From Chloroflexota bacterium (GTDB lineage Bacteria; Chloroflexota; Dehalococcoidia; Bin125), in assembly GCA_026707335.1 (NCBI GenBank), contig JAPOXB010000054.1, positions 1-38,805 on the forward strand: a stretch of 38,805 bases of DNA, written 5' to 3'. The translations under genes were made by a program, and so were the position numbers. Below, piece by piece: positions 4,027 through 17,288 of the stretch; position 1 is the stretch's first letter; each line of letters begins with the position of its first letter. The notes under the pieces were generated by a model. The model saw only the letters and a list, made by a program, of their open reading frames with translations, was not told where the DNA came from and made no database searches.

Positions 4027-4077
4027 TACACTCAGCGGACCGGCGCTTTGTTCGGATGCGCTCGCAGCCTCCGGGAG
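4027..4077 (+). promoter_or_regulatory. -10 element and ribosome binding site of the moxR/bat operon
   Basis: A TACACT hexamer at 4027-4032 fits a -10 box, though no good -35 precedes it. GGGAG at 4073-4077 lies five bases before ATG 4083. It selects that start over the in-frame ATG at 4056, which has no Shine-Dalgarno sequence. Confidence 0.4.
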
Positions 4078-4082
4078 CAGCC

Positions 4083-5145
<1,063 letters not shown>

Positions 5146-5162
<17 letters not shown>

Positions 5163-6108
5163 CCGGCTGCTGGACTGGCTGTCCCCGCCCGCCGCCCTGC
5201 TGGGCGAGTCGGAGGATCCCGCCGTGGCCGAGGCGCGCATCCGCCGCGAGGTGCGCGCGATCGAGATCCGGGCCCGCACCGCCCTGCGCGAGCGCATGAC
5301 CGGCGACTTCCGCAGCGCCTTCCGCGGCCGCGGCCTGGAGTTCGCCTCGATCCGCGCCTACACGCCCGGCGACGAAGTGCGCCTGATCGACTGGAACGTC
5401 ACCGCCCGCCGCGGCGCACCGTACGTCAAGGAGTTCGTCGAGGAGCGCGAGCGCACGCTGTTGATCGTGCTCGACGTCAGCCCCTCTGGGGCCTTCGGGA
5501 CGACCGGCCGCAGCGTGCGCCGCTTCGCGGTCGAGGTGGCGGGGCTGCTGGGTTTCTCCGCCGCCGCCAGCAACGACCGCGTCGGCGCGATCGCCTTCAG
5601 CGACCGCACGGAGTACCTGCTGCAGCCCGCCCGCGGCGACGCGCACGTCCTGCGCCTGCTGCACGACCTGCTGCACCTCCGGCCGCGGGGCGGCGGCAGC
5701 GACCTGGGCGGGGCGCTGGAGCACGCCGCGCGCACACTGCGCGGCGGCAGCATCGTGGCGGTCATCTCGGACTTCCAGGGCGACGCCGCAGAGGCCGGCG
5801 ACTGGCAGCCTGCCCTGCGCCGGCTCGCCGTCGCGCACGACGTGCTGGCGCTGCACGTGCACGACCCCGCCCAGGCCCGGCTGCCCGACGACGGCCTGCT
5901 GACCATCGAGGACGCCGAGTCGGGCCGCGTCGTCACCGTCGACCCGGCCGCGATCGGCGACGACTTCGCCCGCGAGGACGCCCGCCGCGGGCAGGCCGTC
6001 CGGCGGCTGCTCCGGGCCAGCGGGGCCGACTACCTCTCGCTGCCCAGCGACGCGCCCGCCGCCCCCGCCCTGGCCAGGCTCTTCCGCCTGCGGACCCAGC
6101 GCCGATGA
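5146..6108 (+). CDS. DUF58 domain protein (VWA-like partner of MoxR)
   Basis: 320 aa, no obvious signal peptide or membrane segment. The DUF58 core is clear: FASIRAYTPGDEVRLIDWN, then a KEFVEERE segment and a VWA-like metal-binding start LDVSPS (D110, S112, S114). The start is GTG 5146, overlapping moxR by 17 bases, which suggests translational coupling. The product should be cytoplasmic and work with MoxR on a membrane or envelope target. Its 3' end overlaps the next gene by the four bases ATGA. Confidence 0.9.
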
Positions 6109-7091
6109 GCCCCCGGCGGCTGGCCGTCGCGCTGCTGGGACTCGTGGCGCTGCTCGCGCTGGGGGCGCCGTCGGCCGCCGCGCAGGCGCCGCCGTCGCCG
6201 CTGCCGCCCGGTGTGGCCGTCGGCGTCGAGGTGGAGCGCGAGGGCGACACCATCGGCGACCCCGTGCGGCTCACGGTCGTCGTCACGCACCCGCCCGGGG
6301 GCGAACTGCTCGTGCCCCCGCCCGAGGGTCCGATGGGCGCGCTGGAGCCGGCGTCGCCGGTCGTGACGCGCGACACGACGGCCGACGGCCTCACCCGCGT
6401 CACGCTCGTCTACGAGACGCGCGCCTTCGCGACCGGCCCGCTGCCGCTGACGCCGCCCGCGCTCTCCTACCGCCGCGACGGCCTGACGACCGCGATCCAG
6501 CCCGCCGGACGGATCATCGACGTGCGCTCGCTGCTGCCTGCGGACGGGTCGGCGGCGCCCCGCGGCCTGAAGCCGGCCGAGCAGGTCGGGGCGACGGGTT
6601 TCCCGACCGTGCCGGTCGCCGTGGGCGGATCGATCGCCGCGCTGCTGCTCCTTGCGGTGGGGGTGACCCTCGCCCGGCGGCGGCGGCCGGCGCCACCGGC
6701 GACCGCCGCTCCCGGCCCCGGGGCGCTGGCCGGCCGCGACCTCGATGCGATCGCCGGCGCCGGCCTCCTGCCCCACGCCGTCGACGAGTTCTGCGCGCGG
6801 ATCAACGGCGCCGTGCGCGGCTATCTGGCCGCGCGCTACGGCCTGCCCGCGCTGAACCTGACCGCGTCGGAACTGGCCGAGCGCCTGGCCCGCGCCGGGG
6901 CCGACGCGGGCACGGTGCAGCGCGTGCGCAGCCTCTGTCAGGCCTGCGATGGCATCGCCTACGCCGGCTCGACGCCCAGCGCGGCCCGCGTCGCCCGCTA
7001 CCTCGACCTGGCCCAGGCCATCGTGCGGGAAGGCCCGGCCCCCGCCGCCGCACCGGCCGGCCCCACCGCCCCTGCGAGCGAGGTGCAGTGA
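6105..7091 (+). CDS. BatD-like membrane protein with N-terminal signal peptide
   Basis: 328 aa. Residues 1-27 form a signal peptide ending in an Ala-rich cleavage region. An extracytoplasmic beta-rich part follows to about 165, with a GDPVRLTVVVTHP stretch typical of BatD or DUF4381-type proteins. A single membrane helix spans about 168-190, ended by an RRRRP stop-transfer segment, and a cytoplasmic helical domain covers about 205-310. Position between DUF58 and BatA matches BatD/DUF4381 genes of MoxR operons. The family name is assigned mainly from architecture and context. The start overlaps the previous stop (ATGA) and the end overlaps the next start (TGATG). Confidence 0.7.
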   Translation: MSPRRLAVALLGLVALLALGAPSAAAQAPPSPLPPGVAVGVEVEREGDTIGDPVRLTVVVTHPPGGELLVPPPEGPMGALEPASPVVTRDTTADGLTRVTLVYETRAFATGPLPLTPPALSYRRDGLTTAIQPAGRIIDVRSLLPADGSAAPRGLKPAEQVGATGFPTVPVAVGGSIAALLLLAVGVTLARRRRPAPPATAAPGPGALAGRDLDAIAGAGLLPHAVDEFCARINGAVRGYLAARYGLPALNLTASELAERLARAGADAGTVQRVRSLCQACDGIAYAGSTPSAARVARYLDLAQAIVREGPAPAAAPAGPTAPASEVQ

Positions 7092-8047
7092 TGCGCTTCG
7101 CCGACCCGGAACTGCTGGTCCTGCTGGCGCTGCTGCCGCTGTTCGTCTGGCTGCTGCGCCGCGACGGCCGACGTCATCCGGCCAGCCTGCGCCTGCCCAG
7201 TTTGGCCGCGCTGCCCGCCGCGGCCCGCGCCGGCGGCCGCTCGTGGCGGACGCGCACCCTGCCCTGGCTGCCCGTCCTGCGGCTGGCCGCCGCCGCGCTG
7301 ATCATCATCGCCCTCGCGCGCCCGCAGACCGCCGACGCCGAGGCCAGCACCACCGCCGAGGGCATCGACATCGTGCTCGCGATCGACACCTCGCTGAGCA
7401 TGGTGCAGGAGTCGATCGGGGACGAGCGGCGGATCGAGGCGGCCCGGCGCGTGGCCCGCGACTTCATCGACCGGCGCGGCGCCGACCGCGTGGGGCTGCT
7501 CGTCTTCGAGTCCCGCACGCTGGTCCTCAGCCCGCCGACGCTCGACCTGGACGCCATCGACCGCCTGGTGGCCGACACGATGCGCACCGGCCTGCTGCCC
7601 GGCGGCACCGCCGTCGGCCTGGCGCTGGCGAAGTCGGTCGACCTGCTGCGCGAGTCGGACGCGCCCAGCCGCATCGTCGTGCTGCTCACCGACGGCGAGG
7701 ACAACGTGCGCACCGTGCGCCCCGTCGACGCGGCCGGCATCGCCGAAGCGCTGGGCGTGCGCGTCTACACCATCGCCATCGCCGACCCGGGCGCCTACCA
7801 GGGCGTCGTCGATGAGCTCGCCCTGCGGTTCATCGCCGACCGCACGGGCGGCGAGTACTTCCGCGCCTCCGAGCCCGGCGACCTGGAGGCCGCCTACGCC
7901 GCCGTCGACGCCCTCGAGCGGGCGCGGCTCGACACGGAGGAGTTCACCGTCTTCCGCGAGCGCATGCCCTGGTTCCTCATCCCCGCGATGGCGCTGATCC
8001 TGCTCGAGTTGCTGGGCCGCGCCACCTGGTGGAGGCGCGCGCCATGA
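7091..8047 (+). CDS. BatA-like von Willebrand factor A membrane protein
   Basis: 318 aa. Two hydrophobic segments at the N-terminus (about residues 6-20 and 58-75), a VWA domain, and a C-terminal membrane helix (about 290-308) give the standard BatA topology. The MIDAS motif DTSLS is complete (D99, S101, S103), and LLTDGEDN supplies the later acidic ligand region. ATG 7091 overlaps the previous stop in TGATG; the GTG three bases upstream is an equal alternative. Bat proteins are partners of MoxR ATPases and have been linked to envelope stress tolerance in other bacteria. The role here is inferred from that. Confidence 0.88.
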   Translation: MRFADPELLVLLALLPLFVWLLRRDGRRHPASLRLPSLAALPAAARAGGRSWRTRTLPWLPVLRLAAAALIIIALARPQTADAEASTTAEGIDIVLAIDTSLSMVQESIGDERRIEAARRVARDFIDRRGADRVGLLVFESRTLVLSPPTLDLDAIDRLVADTMRTGLLPGGTAVGLALAKSVDLLRESDAPSRIVVLLTDGEDNVRTVRPVDAAGIAEALGVRVYTIAIADPGAYQGVVDELALRFIADRTGGEYFRASEPGDLEAAYAAVDALERARLDTEEFTVFRERMPWFLIPAMALILLELLGRATWWRRAP

Positions 8048-9903
8048 GCCTCGCACCCCTGCCGCCCCTCGCCCTCTCCCCGCTGACACAGTTCGGCGAC
8101 CCCGCCCTGCTCACGCTGCTGCTGCTCGGGTTCCTGGCGGGCGGCCTCTCGCTGCGCATCCTGCGCCGGCGCGCGCTCCGGGTGACGCGGCTGCTGGACC
8201 GGGGCGGCGGGCGCGTGCTGGCGGGCGCCGACCCCCGGCGCGACCTCTGGAAGTTCGGCCTGATCAGCCTGGTCGTGGTGCTGCTCGCGCTCGCCGTCGC
8301 CCGGCCGCAGTTCGGCGAGCGCACGCGGACGCTGGAGCAGCAGGGCGTCGCGATGGTCGTCGCGCTCGACGTGTCGCTCAGCATGGCGGCGCAGGACACC
8401 GCCCCCGATCGCATGCAGGCTGCCCAGACGGAGCTGGCGGGACTGCTCGACCGGATGTCGGGCGACCGCGTCGGCCTCGTCATCTACGCGGGCGAGGCGC
8501 TGGTGCGCTTCCCGCTCACCCGCGACCTGACCGCCGCCCGCGATCTGATCGGCGCGATGCAGCCGGGCGAGCGGCTGGTGCAGCCGGGAACCGACGTCGC
8601 GGCGGCCATCACGCAATCGCTGGCGCTGCTGGAGACGACCCCCTCGCGGACGCGCGTGATCCTGCTCGTCGGCGACGGGGAGAGCCTGAGCGGCGACGCC
8701 CTCGCCGCGGCACGGATGGCGGCGGCCGCCGACGTGCACATCTTCACGGCCGGCGCCGGCAGCGAGGCGGGCGCCACGATCCCGGTGGTCAACCGCAACA
8801 CGACCGAGACGGTCACGAAGATCGACGCCCGCACCGGCGAGCCGGTCATCACCCGCCTCGACAGCGCGGCGCTGACGGCGCTGGCCGACCGGGGGCGGGG
8901 GCGCTTCGTGCGGCTGGACCAGCCCGGCGCCCTCAGCGACCTCGCCGCCGACTTCGAGGCGCTGGAGGCGTCGCGCTTCCACGTCACGACCGAGCGGCAG
9001 CCCCGCGAGCGCTTCCAGATCGCCCTCGCGCTGGCCCTGGCGCTGCTGCTCATCGAGCCGCTGATCGCGGCGCGCGCACCCCGGCGGGCGTCGCCGGTCG
9101 CGGCGCGCGTCCGATGGCTGCGGCGGCGGCGGCTGCTGTTCGCGGGGCTGCTGCCGATCGTCGCGCTGCTGGCCGCGTCGTGCGGTGACTTCGCGGCCGA
9201 GCGCAACGCGGCCGGGACCGCCGCCTTCGACGAGGGCCGCTTCGCCGACGCCGCCGTCGCCTACCGCGAGGCGCTCGCGGCCGAACCCGGCGACGCGCGC
9301 CTGGCCCTGAATCTGGGCCGCGCCCTGCACGCCCTCGCGGAGTACGACGCCGCCGTCGCGGCCTCGCGCCGCGCCCTCACCACCCACGACGACGCCCTGG
9401 CCGCCCGCGCCTACTACCAGATCGGCGTGCACCACTTCGCGCGGGACGACCTCGTCGCGGCGCGCAGCGCCTACATCGAGGCGCTGCTGCTCGACCCCTC
9501 GGACGCCGACGCCAAGCTGAATCTGGAGATCGTGAACCGGTTGCTGGCGGCGCTCGCTCCGCCTCCGGCGGCGGAGGACGGGACGCCGGGCTCGGGCGAG
9601 GGCGACGGCGGCGGCGCCGAGGGCGGCGGCGGGCGGGGGCCCGGCGCGGACGGTGATGACTCCCCGGTCGACACCGCGCCCGGCCGGCTGGCGGGCCGCG
9701 CCGACGTCCCCGGCGAGGACGACCAAAGCCTGGACGCCGGGCCGGCCGCGGAGGCCCTGCGGGAGGCGATCCAGGCCTTCGACCGCAACAATCCCACGCT
9801 CGAGGAGGCGCTGGCGATCCTCGAGGCCCTGCGCGCCATCGAGGAGACGCGGGGCGCGTCGGGCATGCTGGGCGTCGAGGTGGCCGGCCAGGACGACTAC
9901 TAG
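8044..9903 (+). CDS. BatB-BatC fusion: VWA membrane protein joined to a TPR domain
   Basis: 619 aa in one uninterrupted frame. Residues 1-360 form a BatB-like part: two N-terminal membrane helices, a VWA domain with an intact MIDAS (D109, S111, S113), and a helix near 325-345. A second hydrophobic stretch at about 360-379 after RRRR ends in a lipobox-like LAASC with Cys at 380. TPR repeats follow (about 385-500; repeats around the NLGRALHALAEYDAAV and YYQIGVHHFARDD segments). A Gly/Asp-rich linker and a helical, acidic C-terminus (about 570-619) close it. The TPR part looks like a BatC lipoprotein fused in frame after BatB. No ATG or GTG is present at the junction. ATGA overlap with batA. Ends ten bases from the convergent transglutaminase-fold gene. 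Confidence 0.85.
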   Translation: MSLAPLPPLALSPLTQFGDPALLTLLLLGFLAGGLSLRILRRRALRVTRLLDRGGGRVLAGADPRRDLWKFGLISLVVVLLALAVARPQFGERTRTLEQQGVAMVVALDVSLSMAAQDTAPDRMQAAQTELAGLLDRMSGDRVGLVIYAGEALVRFPLTRDLTAARDLIGAMQPGERLVQPGTDVAAAITQSLALLETTPSRTRVILLVGDGESLSGDALAAARMAAAADVHIFTAGAGSEAGATIPVVNRNTTETVTKIDARTGEPVITRLDSAALTALADRGRGRFVRLDQPGALSDLAADFEALEASRFHVTTERQPRERFQIALALALALLLIEPLIAARAPRRASPVAARVRWLRRRRLLFAGLLPIVALLAASCGDFAAERNAAGTAAFDEGRFADAAVAYREALAAEPGDARLALNLGRALHALAEYDAAVAASRRALTTHDDALAARAYYQIGVHHFARDDLVAARSAYIEALLLDPSDADAKLNLEIVNRLLAALAPPPAAEDGTPGSGEGDGGGAEGGGGRGPGADGDDSPVDTAPGRLAGRADVPGEDDQSLDAGPAAEALREAIQAFDRNNPTLEEALAILEALRAIEETRGASGMLGVEVAGQDDY

Positions 9904-9913
9904 CCCGAAGGCC

Positions 9914-12583
9914 TCACTCGGCGGGCGCGGCGGGAACGGGCAGCCGGAGCACGCGCCGCACGAGCCGCCCGCGCAGCGCCCGCCAGGCGGCGAGGGCCTG
10001 CGCGTGGTGCGACTCCGGCAGCGCCCCGGCCGAGAAGCGTTCGCGGGTGTAGGTGTCGGCCAGGCGGCGCGTGGCCTCCGGGTCGCGCACGGCGTCGCCC
10101 AGCGCGGCCGCGTACTCGCGCGGCGTGTTGGCCGGGTCGACGCGCAGGCCGCCCCAGCGGGACAGGCGCTGCGTCGACGTCCACAAGCGTTCCACGGGCG
10201 TCTGCCCGCGCAACGAGAACTGCCACGCCGCGGCCCCGCTGCCGGTCAGCAGCAGCAGCGCCAGAGCGAGCGCCAGCGGCGCCAGCACCCACCAGGTCAG
10301 GGGATTGAAGCCGGTGTCGCGGGCGAAGCCCTCCTGTTCGAGTTGCTGGCTCAGCTCCTCCAGCGAGAGGAACTCGCCGAACGGGTCCAGCAGCGGGTCG
10401 TACAGCGGACCGGAGTCGCCCAGCAGGTCGGAGGCGAACGGCCGCAGGCGCTGCTCGGCGATGCGCTGCCCCGCGATCCCCGCGAACCCCTCCGTCACCA
10501 CCGGCGGCGTGGGGTCGAAGTCCACCCAACCGTACTCGGGGAAGAACACCTCCACCCAGCTGTAGCCGTGCAGCCCCCGCACGATGAAGGTGCCGGTGCG
10601 CGGATCGAAGTTGTCGTCCGTCAGGACGTAGCCGGTGCTCACGCGGGCGGGGATGCCCAGCGTTCGCAGCAGCACGGCCATCGCGCTGGCGTGGTAGTCG
10701 TAGTAACCGCCGATGGGCAGCCCGTCGGCGTCGCGATTGTCGAACAGCCACCAGGTGACGGCGTCGGTCCGCGCCGGCGGGAGAGCCACGTCGCGCGTGA
10801 AGGGGTACAGCAGCCGCGGCGTCCCGTCCGACCCCAGCAGCACCTCGCCGTCGTCATCGCGCAGCGGCGTGCAGCAGAGATAGCCCTCGATGGCGGCCGC
10901 GGCGTCGTAGCGGGACGCGACCCCGCCGACGATGCTCGCCGCCAGGCTCTCCAGCCGGCCCAGGCTGCGATCGTCGAGGTCGCCCGGCAGTTGCAGATAG
11001 CGCTGGCGCACCCAGAACGGGTACTCGCCGCCCGACCGCCGCAGTTGGTTGATGGAGGCGGACGACACGGAGCCCCTGACCTCGTACGTGAAGCCCGCGC
11101 GCACGGGCTCCGAGGGGTGCACGCGCAGCACGTCCGGCTCCAGCGGCCGGTTCTCCAGGTCCAGCGCCAGCAGCTCGCCGTCGTCGCCGACCTCCGAGCC
11201 CACCGGCACCCAGCCCTCGGGGATCACGTCGGCGGAGAACGATTCCCCGGCCTCCTCGCGGTCCGCGATCTCCCGCGCCACGCCCGCCAGCTCCCGCGGC
11301 GCGGCCGCCGCCGATCCCTCGATGTCGAGCCGGACGGCGCCCGGGGCCGTCTGGTCGATCGTCACCTCGCGGCTGATCTCCCGCGGCAGGCCGAAGGTGA
11401 AGAGAACCCGCGCCGACTGCTCCACCGACACCCGCGCGACCACGTCGCGGCGCGCCTCGTAGACGCTCTCGTCCTCGCCGCCGAAGGAGCCCTGCGAGAC
11501 GGGCTTGGTCGTGACCACCGAACTCTGCTGCCAGCCGCGCGTCGTGTAGTGGTCGTAGCTCGCGCCGCGCAGCAGCCCCACCTCAGGCGCGTCGACGCGC
11601 ACCACGATGCCCTGCCCCGGGTTGATGTCCCCTTGCAGGATGAAGTTGGAACTGAAGCTGTGGATCGGCACGCCCCGCTTGGAGTCGATGCCGCCGAAGA
11701 GGCGCTCCATGTCGAGGCTCAGCTCGTCGAAGGGATCGGCGATGCCGCTCCAGACCGCCGTCAGGGGCTCCACGCGGTCGGGCCGCGGCAGCGCGCGGCT
11801 GACCACGATCAGGGCCAGCACGGCCAGCAGCGTGACGCCCAGGAAGCTCAGGCTGATGAAGTCGGGGAACGGCGTCCCGCGGCTGCGCCAGCGCCCCATC
11901 CGCGCCAGCAGACCGGTGCGCATGACAAGCAGCGCCGCCCCGATCGCGAAGAAGGCGAAGTGCAGATCCCACTGCCGGCCGCCCAGGTAGCTGACGTTCA
12001 CCGCCAGCAGCGTCCCCAGCAGGATCAGCAGCGGCCAGGGATTGCGGCGCCGCAGCACCAGCAGCGTGGCCGGGAAGGTCGCCAGCCAGACGGCCGCGAC
12101 GACGAAGAACACGAACGGCACGTTGTCCGTCGTGATGCCGTCGTTGAAGGCCTGCGTGAACCAGTCCTCCAGGCGGAAGCGCAGGTCGATGAAGCGCTCC
12201 CAGAACCAGGCCTGGCCCGTGAAGTGCTCCATGCCGAGCATCTGCCAGCAAACGACGACCACGCCCAGCGCGAGGCCGATCGCGTAGGCCGCGGTCCAGT
12301 GCAGCCGGCGCGCCGCCAGCGGCACCGCCGCAACCAGCGCCAGCAGGGCCGTGACGCGCACGTCGGGCATGCCGTCGACCCAGTTCGCCGCGTGGATGGA
12401 GTCGGACACGGCGATGATCACCAGCAGCAGGATGCCCAGCGTGACCGCGGCCTCCATCAGGCGCCACGGCCAGCGCTCCTGCGTCGTCTGCTGCTGCCCG
12501 GGCGCGACGGCGCCGCGGATCAACGCGGCCGGCGAGAGGTTCGCCGCGGCGGCGACGTCGGCGAGGGGCAGACGCGAACTCAT
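9914..12583 (-). CDS. DUF3488/transglutaminase-like/DUF4129 membrane protein with altered catalytic residues
   Basis: 889 aa. About seven membrane helices lie in the first 285 residues (DUF3488-type), followed by an extracytoplasmic region and a transglutaminase-like core around 600-690. A membrane helix follows at about 755-780, then a cytoplasmic DUF4129-like tail. The core keeps LLRTLGIPARVSTGY and WVDFDPTPP. However, where active members have GYC before the helix, this protein reads GYYDYHASA (Tyr628 in the Cys column), and the usual His two before WVEV is Tyr674. The Asp of DFDPTPP is kept. It is probably not a standard cysteine transglutaminase. ATG 12583 overlaps the upstream DUF58 stop (ATGA). 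Third gene of the minus-strand MoxR operon. Confidence 0.85.
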   Translation of the reverse strand: MSSRLPLADVAAAANLSPAALIRGAVAPGQQQTTQERWPWRLMEAAVTLGILLLVIIAVSDSIHAANWVDGMPDVRVTALLALVAAVPLAARRLHWTAAYAIGLALGVVVVCWQMLGMEHFTGQAWFWERFIDLRFRLEDWFTQAFNDGITTDNVPFVFFVVAAVWLATFPATLLVLRRRNPWPLLILLGTLLAVNVSYLGGRQWDLHFAFFAIGAALLVMRTGLLARMGRWRSRGTPFPDFISLSFLGVTLLAVLALIVVSRALPRPDRVEPLTAVWSGIADPFDELSLDMERLFGGIDSKRGVPIHSFSSNFILQGDINPGQGIVVRVDAPEVGLLRGASYDHYTTRGWQQSSVVTTKPVSQGSFGGEDESVYEARRDVVARVSVEQSARVLFTFGLPREISREVTIDQTAPGAVRLDIEGSAAAAPRELAGVAREIADREEAGESFSADVIPEGWVPVGSEVGDDGELLALDLENRPLEPDVLRVHPSEPVRAGFTYEVRGSVSSASINQLRRSGGEYPFWVRQRYLQLPGDLDDRSLGRLESLAASIVGGVASRYDAAAAIEGYLCCTPLRDDDGEVLLGSDGTPRLLYPFTRDVALPPARTDAVTWWLFDNRDADGLPIGGYYDYHASAMAVLLRTLGIPARVSTGYVLTDDNFDPRTGTFIVRGLHGYSWVEVFFPEYGWVDFDPTPPVVTEGFAGIAGQRIAEQRLRPFASDLLGDSGPLYDPLLDPFGEFLSLEELSQQLEQEGFARDTGFNPLTWWVLAPLALALALLLLTGSGAAAWQFSLRGQTPVERLWTSTQRLSRWGGLRVDPANTPREYAAALGDAVRDPEATRRLADTYTRERFSAGALPESHHAQALAAWRALRGRLVRRVLRLPVPAAPAE

Positions 12584-13839
12584 GCCAGCGCCCCCACTCC
12601 GGCGCGGCCCGGCGTGCCCGCCGCGGCGTCGAGCGCCTCCGCCAGGAAGTCGCCCTGCGCGACGAGATTGGTCTGCACGCCCGAGGCGCGCAGGGTCGTC
12701 CACGCCTCCTCACCGCCCGCGCGCCCGCCGAACGAGGCCGCGTCGATCAGCACGGCCGCCACCTGCACGCCGCGCTGGGCCAGCGCGCGGATACCGTCGC
12801 AGGCCCGCCGATCGCTGGCGGCCGTGATCACGATCACCGTCGTGTGCCGCCCCCAGCGGGGCGACTGCTGGGCCAGCAGCGTGGAGATGGGCACGTCGCC
12901 GACGGGCTGCGCTACCGCCAGGTCCTCCAGCATGCGGGTCAGCTGCTGATTGCCCCGGTCGGCGTCGATCAGGCGGAAGCGGTCGGCGAACATCATCATG
13001 CCCACCGATCGGTTCTGCCCCAGGAAGAGCCGCGCGATGGAGGCGGCGGCGGTCACCGCGTACTCCACGGTGGCCTCGTCGTCCGTCCCCGCGTGGTCGC
13101 TGCGGTTCATGTCCAGCACGATCCACAGCTGCGAGGCCGGGTCCAACTCGAACGTCTTCACGTGCAACCGGCCGGTGCGCAGCGTGCTGGGCCAGTGGAT
13201 GCGATTGACGCTGTCGCCGGGGGCGTACTCGCGCAGGCCCGATGCGTTGGGCGTCACGTAGTGGGTGCGGCGGCGGAAGCGCCCCTCGCCGGGCAGGTTG
13301 GCCGGCGGCACGCTGTAGCGGGGCAACTCCTCGGCCCGCGGGTAGACGAGCAACTGCTGCGGCCCGCCGAAGGTCATGCTCTTGTGGAACAGGTCGAAGG
13401 GGTCGCCGGCGCGGACGTGCACCGGGCCCAGCGTGAACAGGCCGCGGCGGCGGCACTCGGTGTCGACGCGCCACTGCCGGCGCGCGCGCCCGCCCAGGCT
13501 GACGACGTGCTCCGCCTGATGCTGCGGCAGGTCCGACTCCTCCTCGACCTCCAGCCAGTACTTGCCCAGGCGCGAGCGGTTGGTGACCTGCAGCTGCTCG
13601 GTGATCGTCTGGCCCACCTGCACCCGCTCCGAGTCGCGGCGCATGCGCACCTGCAAGCCGCGGCTGCTCAGCCAGGTCCACATCGCGGCCGCGATGAGGC
13701 CGAAGAGCAGCAGGTAGCCCAGCCGCAGCGGCAGCCAGAAGTTCGTCGAGAAACCGATGCCGAAGACCACGAGGGTCAGGATGGTGACCAGGGTTAGCGA
13801 TCGCCGCCGGCCGAACGTCGCACCGTAGAACCGGCGCAT
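12580..13839 (-). CDS. DUF58 membrane protein (second copy)
   Basis: 419 aa. Two N-terminal membrane helices (about residues 14-60) are followed by a beta-rich segment and the DUF58 core, with REYAPGDSVNRIHWPSTLR and a VWA-like LDMNRS (DxNxS). Unlike the 320-aa copy at 5146-6108 this one is membrane-anchored, the form usually found next to transglutaminase genes. It lies seven bases after the minus-strand moxR stop and overlaps the transglutaminase-fold gene by four bases, so the three genes form one transcription unit. Confidence 0.9.
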   Translation of the reverse strand: MRRFYGATFGRRRSLTLVTILTLVVFGIGFSTNFWLPLRLGYLLLFGLIAAAMWTWLSSRGLQVRMRRDSERVQVGQTITEQLQVTNRSRLGKYWLEVEEESDLPQHQAEHVVSLGGRARRQWRVDTECRRRGLFTLGPVHVRAGDPFDLFHKSMTFGGPQQLLVYPRAEELPRYSVPPANLPGEGRFRRRTHYVTPNASGLREYAPGDSVNRIHWPSTLRTGRLHVKTFELDPASQLWIVLDMNRSDHAGTDDEATVEYAVTAAASIARLFLGQNRSVGMMMFADRFRLIDADRGNQQLTRMLEDLAVAQPVGDVPISTLLAQQSPRWGRHTTVIVITAASDRRACDGIRALAQRGVQVAAVLIDAASFGGRAGGEEAWTTLRASGVQTNLVAQGDFLAEALDAAAGTPGRAGVGALA

Positions 13840-13846
13840 GCCGCGC

Positions 13847-14800
13847 TCAACTCACACCCACCCGCGCGCCCGGGACGGGCACCCGGTCCAGCACGTCCTC
13901 CACCACCGTCAGCGAACTCACGCTGCGCACCTGCGCCGAGGGGCTGATGATGATGCGGTGCCCCAGCGTCGAGTAGGCCAGCTCTTTGACGTCGTCGGGC
14001 GTGACGTAGTCCCGGCCGGCGAGCAGCGCGGCGGCCTGCGAGGTGCGGAACAGCGCCAGCGACCCCCGCGGCGACGCCCCCAGGTAGGCCGCGTCGTGCT
14101 GCCGCGTCGCCGAGGAGATCTCCACGATGTACTGCTTGATCAGCGGGTCGACCCAGACGGCCCGCACGGCCTCCTGCAGGCCGTTCAGCGCCTCCGGGTC
14201 GGTCACCGCCTCCAGCGAGTCGATCGGGTGGGCCGTCTGCTGCCCCTCCAGCACGGCGATCTCATCGTGCGATTCGGGGTAGCCCAGGTGGATGCGCATC
14301 AGGAAGCGGTCCAACTGCGCTTCGGGCAGCGGGAAGGTGCCCTCGTACTCGATCGGGTTCTGAGTCGCCATGACCATGAACGGGCGGGGCAGCTCGCGCG
14401 TCACCCCGTCGGTCGTGATCTGGCGCTCCTCCATCGCTTCCAACAGCGCCGACTGCGTCTTGGGCGTGGCCCGGTTGATCTCGTCGGCCAGGGCGATCTG
14501 GGCGTAGATGGGGCCCGGCCGCCACTCGAAGTCGCCCGACTTCTGGTTGTAGATCGAGACGCCGGTCACGTCCGACGGCAGCAGGTCGGGCGTGAACTGG
14601 ATGCGGCTGAAGCCGCAGCCCGTCGAGACGGCCAGCGCCCGGGCCAGCATCGTCTTGCCGGTGCCGGGCACGTCCTCGACCAGCAGGTGCCCGTCGCTGG
14701 CCAGAGCCAGCACCGCGCGCCGCACCTCGGCCGACTTGCCCAGGATGACGCGCTCGACGTTGGTCGTGATTTCACGCAGCGTGGCCTGCGGATCGTCCAT
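13847..14800 (-). CDS. MoxR-family AAA+ ATPase (second copy)
   Basis: 317 aa. Walker A is DVPGTGKT (K49), Walker B is LADEIN (D106, E107), and the family signature [18 protein letters not shown] follows. It lacks the Pro-rich N-terminal extension of the copy at 4083. ATG 14800 is chosen because AGGGGG precedes it by about six bases, and the upstream in-frame codons would overlap the promoter. It leads the moxR-DUF58-transglutaminase operon and presumably remodels the membrane DUF58/transglutaminase-fold complex (inference from gene order). Confidence 0.93.
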
Positions 14801-14837
14801 CCGAACCCCCTGCTCCCCTAGCCCGCGAGCGGAGCCG

Positions 14838-14846
14838 AGCATAGCA
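14838..14846 (-). promoter_or_regulatory. extended -10 promoter of the minus-strand moxR operon
   Basis: Read on the minus strand this is TGCTATGCT, an extended -10 (TGn-TATGCT). It ends 37 bases before ATG 14800. No convincing -35 is seen, as is normal for extended -10 promoters. It is divergent from the M23 promoter at 14888-14915. Confidence 0.5.
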
Positions 14847-14887: not shown

Positions 14888-14915
14888 TTGTGACTACGCG
14901 CGCCGCCTCTATCCT
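14888..14915 (+). promoter_or_regulatory. sigma-70-type promoter of the first M23 peptidase gene
   Basis: TTGTGA (14888-14893), a 16-base spacer and TATCCT (14910-14915). The predicted start near 14922 leaves a leader of about 16 bases before ATG 14938. It rules out the upstream in-frame start near 14890, which would lie inside the promoter. Confidence 0.55.
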
Positions 14916-14937
14916 GGATCTGTCGGCGGGACCAGGG

Positions 14938-16089
14938 ATGAGCGCAGCCGTGTCCCCACGCCGGCTCGCCGGCCTCGCACTCCTCGCGCTGTGCGGCGCC
15001 CTCCTCGCGAGCGCCTGCTTCATCGACGGGACGGGCGTCGGCCCTTCGCCCGACGATCCACCGGCCGCCGCCGAGGCCCAGCCCGCCGCGTCCGCGGAGA
15101 GCGCCCCCCGGCAGGGAACCGCCGCTGGCCTGGCGCCCGAGGCCCGCAGCGACCCCGCCGAGACGACCGACGCGCCCGCCGACGCGTCATCCCCGCCCGA
15201 GGCTCAGCCCGCAGCGGAGCCCGCGCCCGCGCTCCACGCGGCGATCTTCGTGGAGCCGCGGGAGGTCCGCCCCGGCGAGGTCTTCGTCGTCGCGGTCGAT
15301 GCGACGAACGCCTCGGCGGCCTCGGTGGCGCTGGGCGGACAGTTCGTGTCGCTCGCCCGCGAGGGCGACCGCTTCTACACGATCCTGCCCGTCGCATTCG
15401 CGCAGCCGGCGGGACCGCTGCCGATCATCGTGGCCGTCGCCGACATGAACGGCGGCCTCGCCGTGCAGCAGTTGATCGAGGTGCAGGTCCAGGCGGGCGA
15501 GTTCCCCGTGGAGCCCGTGCAGCTCGACCCGGCGCTGTCGCGGCTGCTGGACCCGGACGTCGTGGCCGAGGATCGCGCCGTGCGCGAATCGGTGCAGCGC
15601 GTGCGCTCGCCCGAGCGCCTCTGGGACGGGTACTTCCGCGAGCCGACCCAGGGGGTGCTCACCTCGACCTTCGGGTTGCTGCGGTCGTACAACGGCGCCG
15701 ACCCGACGGACTACCACAGCGGCCTCGACTTCGCCGCGCCGCGCGGCACCGACGTCGTCGCGGCGAACGCCGGCGTCGTCGCCTGGACCGGCGAAACCGA
15801 GCGGCGGGGGCGCGGCGTGATCATCGATCACGGGCACGGCGTGTTCAGCAGCTACTGGCACCTCGCCGTGGTCGACGCGACGCCGGGGACGCCGGTCGCG
15901 CCCGGCACGATCATCGGCCGGGTGGGCAACACGGGACTCTCCACCGGCTCCCACCTGCACTGGGAGATCACCGTGTACGGCGTGCCCGTCGACCCGCTGC
16001 CCTGGCTGCGGGAGCTCGAAGTCCCCGACCCCCTGGCCCGGTTCGACCCCGCGCGGGCGGTCAATGCCGGGCCCGCGGCGTCCCCCTGA
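14938..16089 (+). CDS. M23 peptidase lipoprotein, Sec-type signal (first copy)
   Basis: 383 aa. The signal peptide has a lipobox ASAC with Cys27, so the protein should be a surface or membrane-anchored lipoprotein. A Pro/Ala/Glu-rich linker (about 30-100) leads to an Ig-like or beta domain beginning IFVEPREVRPGEVF. The C-terminal M23 (LytM) domain carries HSGLD (H260, D264), YWHL and HLHWE (H339, H341), so zinc ligands and catalytic His are intact. M23 enzymes cut peptidoglycan cross-bridges or act as amidase activators. The gene is followed 80 bases later by a paralogue with the same layout. ATG 14938 fits the promoter just upstream. Confidence 0.9.
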   Translation: MSAAVSPRRLAGLALLALCGALLASACFIDGTGVGPSPDDPPAAAEAQPAASAESAPRQGTAAGLAPEARSDPAETTDAPADASSPPEAQPAAEPAPALHAAIFVEPREVRPGEVFVVAVDATNASAASVALGGQFVSLAREGDRFYTILPVAFAQPAGPLPIIVAVADMNGGLAVQQLIEVQVQAGEFPVEPVQLDPALSRLLDPDVVAEDRAVRESVQRVRSPERLWDGYFREPTQGVLTSTFGLLRSYNGADPTDYHSGLDFAAPRGTDVVAANAGVVAWTGETERRGRGVIIDHGHGVFSSYWHLAVVDATPGTPVAPGTIIGRVGNTGLSTGSHLHWEITVYGVPVDPLPWLRELEVPDPLARFDPARAVNAGPAASP

Positions 16090-16169
16090 CCGGATCGGGA
16101 GAGGGAAGCCGAGTACCATGGGATCGGGCGGCGGCGCGAAGCGCGCGCCGCTCCGCCCCGGGCCGGCCC

Positions 16170-17288
16170 ATGTGCATCCCCACGACGACCGCCCGCCACC
16201 GCGCCCTGCGCCGCTTCAGCCGGCGCAGGCTGCTGGGCGCGCTCGGGGGGGCGGGCGCGGGCCTGCTCCTGGCCGCCTGCAGCGGCGGCGAGGACGAGCC
16301 CGGCGTCACCGTCGATGTGCCGGGCGACGACGACCCGGCCGAAGAGCCGATGGCGGAGGCGGCGGCGCAGGCGGAGGGGGCCGACGACGAGGCGCAGAGC
16401 GCGGCCGAGGAAGAGTCGCCGGGGCTGGAGGCCGAGCCGCTGATCTGGGTCGAGCCGCGCGAGGTGCAGCAGGGCGCGGCCTTCATCGTCGCGAGCGACG
16501 CCCCGGGGGCGGGATTCGCCTCGGTCGCCTTCGGCGGCCAGATCCTCTCCATGCAGCGGGAGGGGTCGCGCTTCTACGCCATCCTCGGCATCGACGCGCT
16601 GGCGCCCGTCGGCCCGATCCCGCTGATCATCTCCATCGCCGACGGGGCCGGCGACCCGGCCGTGCAGCGCGAGACCCTGATCGCGGTGCGGGACTCCGAG
16701 TGGCAGACCGAGGTCGTCCAACTGGACGAGGAGAACCGCTCCCTGCTCGACCCGAACGTCACCCGGCAGGACACGGAGACGCGCGGGCCGTTCCTGCGCA
16801 GCCGCAGCAGCGACCGCTTCTGGCACGACATCTTCGACCCGCCCGCCGCCGGCGTGATCACCTCGGGCTACGGGCTGCTGCGCTCGTACAACTACCGCCC
16901 GCCCAGCGAGTACCACGCCGGCGTCGATTTCGCCGGCGCCGTCGGCGACACGATCGTCGCGCCGAGCGGCGGCGTCGTGCTCTGGGGCGGCCAGACGCAG
17001 CGCCGGGGCAACGGCCTGATCGTCGATCACGGCGCCGGCGTCACGTCGGGCTACTACCACCTGTCCGACTTCGCCGTCACGCCCGGGCAGGTCGTGCAGC
17101 CGGGCCAGTTCCTCGCCCGGATGGGCGCGACCGGCCTGGCGACGGGGCCCCACCTGCACTGGGAGATCGTCGTGCAGGGCGTGACGGTGAACCCGGTGCA
17201 GTGGATCCGCACGCTGGGCTTCCCGAGCCCCACACAGGAATTCGACCCGCTCGACGCCCTACCGGCCCGGCTCGAGATCCCCGGCTGA
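16170..17288 (+). CDS. M23 peptidase lipoprotein with twin-arginine signal (second copy)
   Basis: 372 aa. The N-terminus has SRRRLLG at 17-23 followed by a hydrophobic segment and lipobox LAAC with Cys37, that is a Tat-type lipoprotein signal. An acidic Glu/Ala-rich linker follows, then IWVEPREVQQGAAF, the same beta domain as the first copy. An intact M23 domain has HAGVD (H249, D253), YYHL and HLHWE (H328, H330). The two genes are clearly tandem paralogues, yet their export signals differ. ATG 16170 lies directly before the signal. A weak TACCAT near 16112 could be a -10, but the gene may also be read from the upstream promoter. It converges on rsmE. Confidence 0.9.
   Translation: MCIPTTTARHRALRRFSRRRLLGALGGAGAGLLLAACSGGEDEPGVTVDVPGDDDPAEEPMAEAAAQAEGADDEAQSAAEEESPGLEAEPLIWVEPREVQQGAAFIVASDAPGAGFASVAFGGQILSMQREGSRFYAILGIDALAPVGPIPLIISIADGAGDPAVQRETLIAVRDSEWQTEVVQLDEENRSLLDPNVTRQDTETRGPFLRSRSSDRFWHDIFDPPAAGVITSGYGLLRSYNYRPPSEYHAGVDFAGAVGDTIVAPSGGVVLWGGQTQRRGNGLIVDHGAGVTSGYYHLSDFAVTPGQVVQPGQFLARMGATGLATGPHLHWEIVVQGVTVNPVQWIRTLGFPSPTQEFDPLDALPARLEIPG

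Follow-up and report, generated by a model that had tools for sequence, protein, structure and literature searches.

A TgpA-type protein of Dehalococcoidia with tyrosines in place of the catalytic cysteine and histidine of its transglutaminase domain

Results

A TgpA orthologue in a MoxR-DUF58 operon

The window analysed here, a stretch of 38,805 nucleotides from a Chloroflexota bacterium of the class Dehalococcoidia, carries at 9914..12583 on the minus strand a gene for a TgpA-like pseudo-transglutaminase of 889 residues, as identified from the open reading frame, Pfam matches, hydropathy and synteny. According to Pfam and hydropathy, the protein is arranged from the N- to the C-terminus as transmembrane (TM) helices (TgpA_N; PF11992, 33.7 bits, cut-off 30), an extracytoplasmic region with the Transglut_core domain, one more TM helix, and DUF4129 (PF13559, 33.8 bits, cut-off 24.8). 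The Transglut_core match spans residues 626-691 (10511..10708, minus strand), corresponding to positions 52-108 of PF01841 (9.6e-15; 55.2 bits, cut-off 23). The domain order is that of the TgpA family, with all three matches above the curated cut-offs.

The ATG at 12583 overlaps the stop codon of the upstream partner as ATGA. This partner is a DUF58 (vWA-like) protein (12580..13839, minus strand; PF01882, 2.9e-23, and synteny), itself preceded by the first gene of the operon, a MoxR AAA+ ATPase whose Walker A and Walker B motifs are both intact (13847..14842, minus strand; PF07726, 3.3e-63). The MoxR-DUF58-TgpA order is likewise that of the TgpA family, and is kept in those loci of the protein's own family, f1, that have enough flank. 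In a rooted tree the protein shares common descent with the Chloroflexota TgpA orthologues, nested within Dehalococcoidia, and a sequence search of the PDB returned P. aeruginosa TgpA (6G49/6G4H) only. The gene at 12583-9914 is a true TgpA orthologue, third in a MoxR-DUF58-TgpA operon, and encodes the only PF01841 protein in its own genome assembly (265 contigs, 87% complete). An earlier note on this DNA had described the gene as intact within a MoxR-DUF58 operon, in agreement with the domain scores and with the two partner genes directly upstream on the same strand.

Tail-to-tail with the TgpA operon lies a complete Bat-like operon (4056-9903), in which a second MoxR-type AAA ATPase gene (4056..5162, plus strand; PF07726, 4e-64, and synteny) is followed by genes for a DUF58 protein, a 328-residue protein, a BatA-type vWA protein and a vWA protein with TPR (5146..9903, plus strand; Pfam and synteny). 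Among the f1 loci whose flanks are long enough, all but L120 show this pairing. On the other side, tandem M23-type metallopeptidase genes lie upstream of MoxR and run divergently from it on the plus strand, at 14890-16089 and about 16150-17288, and an M23 peptidase gene is found beyond MoxR in the f1 loci reaching that far. The gene at 14890-16089 matches PF01551, while that at about 16150-17288, in the frame of the 14991-17288 open reading frame, looks like a lipoprotein paralogue. We note that the DUF58 partner has a non-canonical metal-site motif, DMNRS here and DLSSQ in relatives, which varies across the class, and the partner's vWA metal binding may be altered too. The Walker motifs of MoxR are intact wherever read across groups, and neither these nor the DUF58 motifs were evidently linked to the state of the transglutaminase (TG) site in any of the groups. 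Relatives of the TgpA-like gene were not found on viral contigs.

Tyrosines occupy the catalytic cysteine and histidine columns

Alignments and codon reading place Tyr628 (codon TAC, 10700..10702, minus strand) in the column of the catalytic cysteine, Tyr674 (TAC, 10562..10564, minus strand) in that of the histidine, and Asp690 (GAC, 10514..10516, minus strand) in the third column of the triad. Flanking the core, RTLGIPARVSTGY and GWVDFDPTP anchor the assignment on either side, and the phmmer alignment to P. aeruginosa TgpA (6G49/6G4H) likewise sets tyrosine over both the catalytic cysteine and histidine columns. Thus the two residues on which the active thiol enzymes of PF01841 depend are absent, with no conserved cysteine elsewhere in the domain, and the acidic third residue is retained; in sister clades with phenylalanine this position is Asn or Ser. 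Three residues after Tyr628, His631 (CAC, 10691..10693, minus strand), which is invariant in family f1, takes a position held by Phe or Tyr in active relatives.

The earlier note had read GYYDYHASA with Tyr628 and GYSWVEV with Tyr674 in this gene and proposed that only the aspartate is kept; residue numbers and coordinates proved exact, the Pfam and phmmer alignments bore out both columns, and the aspartate is indeed in place. It had also held that another Cys/His pair in the pocket would overturn its reading. Within residues 291-700 the sequence comparison leaves C570/C571 as the only candidate substitutes for the cysteine; 3 of 18 relatives have them, and there is thus no thiol site common to the whole of family f1.

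Confidence was low in both AlphaFold models (mean pLDDT 42 and 52), with shallow alignments. In the smaller one (mean pLDDT 52) the order of secondary structure fits a TG fold, with a helix starting from the Tyr628 position and strands located at Tyr674 and ahead of Asp690; in fold comparison it matches TgpA (6G4H/6G49) best and other transglutaminases next.

The replaced site is the best-conserved part of the protein

Tyr628, Tyr674, Asp690 and His631 are identical in all 18 genomes of family f1 with a readable core, and the identity of both tyrosines across these genomes speaks against chance or error. The TG core (residues 621-695) shares 92% identity with the nearest relative, of the same genus, compared to 54-72% in other regions. 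Across f1 the mean majority is 0.84 in the core versus 0.61-0.73 in the TM and DUF4129 parts, and the omega (dN/dS) of the core, 0.015-0.09, is below that of the whole protein in every pair. Taken together, the core identity and low omega show that the active site is not decaying; the Tyr/Tyr pair has become fixed, and purifying selection on it is strong. That the best-kept part of the protein is the dead pocket suggests binding rather than chemistry, yet folding needs alone could account for the conservation. The conserved non-catalytic subfamily that the earlier note anticipated is therefore borne out by Tyr/Tyr in 18/18 same-family genomes and by the MoxR-DUF58 operon. As to whether YYDYHASA is shared by Chloroflexota at large, which the note had raised, the motif is a signature of family f1 only (18 genomes); other Chloroflexota have Cys/His (85 of 98 rows), and sister families of Dehalococcoidia have Phe together with Tyr, Phe or Trp.

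A single origin within Dehalococcoidia

Among 101 TgpA orthologues of the class, the pair of catalytic columns reads Cys-His in 15, Ser-His in 20, Ala-His in 3, Phe with Tyr, Phe or Trp in 40, Tyr-Tyr in 18 and Pro-Tyr in 2, with Val-Leu, Ala-Leu and Ser-Trp once each. The third column is Glu alongside Cys-His or Ser-His (once Asp), Asn alongside Ala-His and most Phe versions, and Asp alongside Tyr-Tyr. In a tree of these orthologues, built without the four active-site columns, 62 rows with replaced pairs, nearly always aromatic ones (Phe/Tyr, Phe/Trp, Phe/Phe or Tyr/Tyr), form one clade (SH-aLRT 100), inside which the Tyr-Tyr proteins form one clade of their own. When 30 outgroup sequences were included, the replaced-pair clade (40 rows after thinning) had a support of 100 and was nested in the class (99), from which it follows that Cys-His is ancestral and the replacement derived. 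The dead site arose once, in one clade of Dehalococcoidia, and has persisted since, with two aromatic residues in nearly every case. Six positions change jointly between aromatic and Cys-His proteins, namely 628, 674, 654, 655, 690 and 631. In sister families within the aromatic clade, position 631 is Gln, Phe, Met or Ser and position 690 is Asn or Ser.

Of 98 rows sampled across Chloroflexota, Cys-His accounts for 85, Ala-His for 6 and Ser-His for 4, leaving 3 that are aromatic; these 3 are the only rows without the histidine and come from in-class genomes of the replaced clade, already counted above. Separately, Ala-His-Glu is found outside the class, in other Chloroflexota (L155, L160, L161, L206, L208, L215). 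Ser-His-Glu instead of Cys-His-Glu is present in the orthologues L025, L031, L042, L045, L048, L050, L055, L056, L058, L060, L065, L066, L072, L073, L078, L083, L086, L096 and L107, all from genomes within the class that have no MraY match above the cut-off; these may represent a serine-based enzyme with a TG fold or a half-dead one. In family f34 (L098 in G108; L046 and L063 in G119 and G061) the triad columns read Pro-Tyr-Ser and Val-Leu-Leu in intact frames, an active site eroded further. The Phe-Tyr-Asn version occurs in the genus labelled f33/g60, whose genomes carry flagellin genes, as do some other genomes of the class. This genus is very probably the cultured Tepidiforma, which is flagellated (PMC10284905).

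Peptidoglycan genes and paralogues

For 79 genomes, data on both the active site and peptidoglycan were available. A MraY match and several PBP transpeptidases are present in 45/45 genomes of the aromatic clade, our genome included, with three of the MraY matches below the model cut-off, one of these a fragment, and PBPs in all 45. The Ala-His genomes and seven Cys-His genomes likewise have MraY and PBP transpeptidases. MraY above the cut-off is absent from 19 Ser-His and five Cys-His genomes, where PBPs amount to one weak hit in one genome. The distribution agrees with the single loss of peptidoglycan genes published for the class (PMC10284905). The association runs in reverse, aromatic sites occurring where peptidoglycan is present and Ser-His where it is absent; striking as it is in counts, it carries no statistical weight because only one change on the tree underlies it.

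In most genomes of the aromatic clade the TgpA-like protein is the sole PF01841 protein. A second one, of about 309 residues, is found in the f1 genomes G151 (G151:C5:103536-103838) and G140 (G140:C28:36701-37009). Since a second such protein is missing from most genomes of the clade, the dead protein is unlikely, as a general rule, to regulate an active paralogue.

Discussion

The closest characterized relative is TgpA (PA2873) of P. aeruginosa, an essential protein encoded in the co-transcribed cluster PA2875-PA2874-PA2873 (PMC3507681). Both proteins combine TgpA_N, Transglut_core and DUF4129 and are encoded by the third gene of a three-gene cluster, and TgpA (6G49/6G4H) is the best match in the PDB by sequence as well as by fold. 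However, TgpA has a Cys-His-Asp triad and measured transglutaminase activity (PMC3507681), whereas here cysteine and histidine are both tyrosine. As the TG domain of TgpA is located on the outer face of the inner membrane (PMC3507681), we infer the same placement here. More precisely, hydropathy and the TgpA topology indicate that the domain likely faces the space between the membrane and the wall or S-layer, since peptidoglycan-bearing Dehalococcoidia are described as monoderms (PMC10284905). Operon and topology together point to a protein that would serve an envelope complex.

Inactive transglutaminase domains, membrane-anchored bacterial ones included, are already known elsewhere. RloB is an inactive transglutaminase with seven TM helices that faces the periplasm and for which genetic phenotypes are described (PMC12239564). 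Our protein resembles it as a membrane-bound inactive transglutaminase outside the inner membrane, but the envelope phenotype is RloB's, the RloB operon contains genes for a retropepsin-like aspartic protease and an ATP-grasp protein where here the neighbours are MoxR, DUF58, vWA and M23, and a Pfam search at E up to 1 gave no RloB-family match. In yeast Cyk3, a TG-like domain without the catalytic cysteine is functional and stimulates the chitin synthase Chs2 (PMC4758748). The absence of the cysteine is common to both proteins, while the action on wall synthesis is that of Cyk3, which is eukaryotic, keeps His and Asp and has an SH3 partner domain (PMC4758748). The Ala-His-Glu TgpA proteins of other Chloroflexota are similar to Cyk3 in having lost Cys and kept His and Glu. 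Inactive TG domains of polymorphic toxins, for which peptide binding has been proposed, have also lost triad residues and are located at the surface, but are fused to RHS repeats of secreted toxins in an unrelated architecture (PMC3482391). Finally, serine-bearing papain-like families of the same superfamily have the catalytic cysteine naturally replaced (PMC10318531), as in the Ser-His-Glu proteins of sister lineages; in these families His is retained together with a third polar residue, unlike the present site with two aromatic residues. In a literature search covering few subscription papers, neither an inactive TgpA nor the Dehalococcoidia series turned up as previously described, and none of the papers in this mostly non-subscription literature joined transglutaminase and Dehalococcoidia.

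We consider it probable that this lineage consists of pseudoenzyme TgpA proteins, which use the groove to bind or scaffold something on the outer side of the membrane and are coupled to MoxR-DUF58. With several passes at the N-terminus and a final TM helix, the protein would expose its TG domain outside the membrane. There, Tyr628, Tyr674, His631, Asp690 and a remodelled loop at 653-655 would line a putative groove that binds a peptide- or wall-linked ligand or partner, neither cleaving nor joining it. As the operon order suggests, DUF58 and the MoxR ATPase may be coupled to this binding across the membrane, by way of DUF4129 at the cytoplasmic end, and would in turn assemble or activate an envelope process, by analogy to the stimulation of chitin synthase by the Cys-less domain of Cyk3.

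Other explanations were weighed against this reading. Having lost catalysis, the TG domain could be a structural spacer with an empty groove, its core plugged and stabilised by the aromatic pair and function residing in the membrane and DUF4129 parts. Packing predicts the observed variation of the residues between families (Phe, Tyr or Trp, and Pro-Tyr and Val-Leu in f34), but in f1 conservation is higher in the core than in the TM and DUF4129 parts, omega is lowest there, and the charged or polar positions 631 and 690 are invariant, and we regard a spacer as rather unlikely. That the pocket works by a different catalytic arrangement, built on His631, Asp690 and a tyrosine hydroxyl, appears improbable: both residues are invariant in 18 f1 proteins and papain-like enzymes with a migrated histidine exist, such as GP42 with its histidine beside the cysteine (PMC10318531), yet the site lacks a thiol or Ser/Thr nucleophile, and the varied residues at 631 and 690 in sister families leave no alternative triad in common.

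Decay of the site after loss of its substrate peptidoglycan, for which the one loss in this class (PMC10284905) might speak, is highly improbable, as all 45 aromatic-clade genomes have the peptidoglycan genes and the 24 genomes lacking MraY above the cut-off have Cys-His or Ser-His sites; wall loss is hence no explanation. The fragmented source assembly could in principle have introduced an assembly error, misread frame or misalignment, but 18 independent genomes agree in these residues, the frames are intact and the alignment is anchored on both sides, which makes the chance of this next to negligible.

Returning to the pseudoenzyme reading, a more specific form of it is offered tentatively, as a possibility short of the probable: in peptidoglycan-bearing Dehalococcoidia, TgpA would have lost catalysis once and been rebuilt as an aromatic-lined receptor for wall peptide, S-layer or secreted polypeptide, reporting to or loaded by MoxR-DUF58.

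The MoxR-DUF58-TgpA type of operon is widespread, its membrane protein has a functional cross-linking enzyme in most bacteria, and P. aeruginosa depends on TgpA as an essential protein. The natural series within one class, from Cys-His through Ser-His and Ala-His to Phe-aromatic and Tyr-Tyr, makes catalysis separable from other functions, and its loss in lineages retaining peptidoglycan provides a way to test which function the operon needs. With the Phe/Tyr/Asn version in a genus that is very probably the cultured Tepidiforma, such testing is practicable. If the receptor reading is true, the conserved role of MoxR-DUF58-TgpA would be binding or assembly, with cross-linking dispensable.
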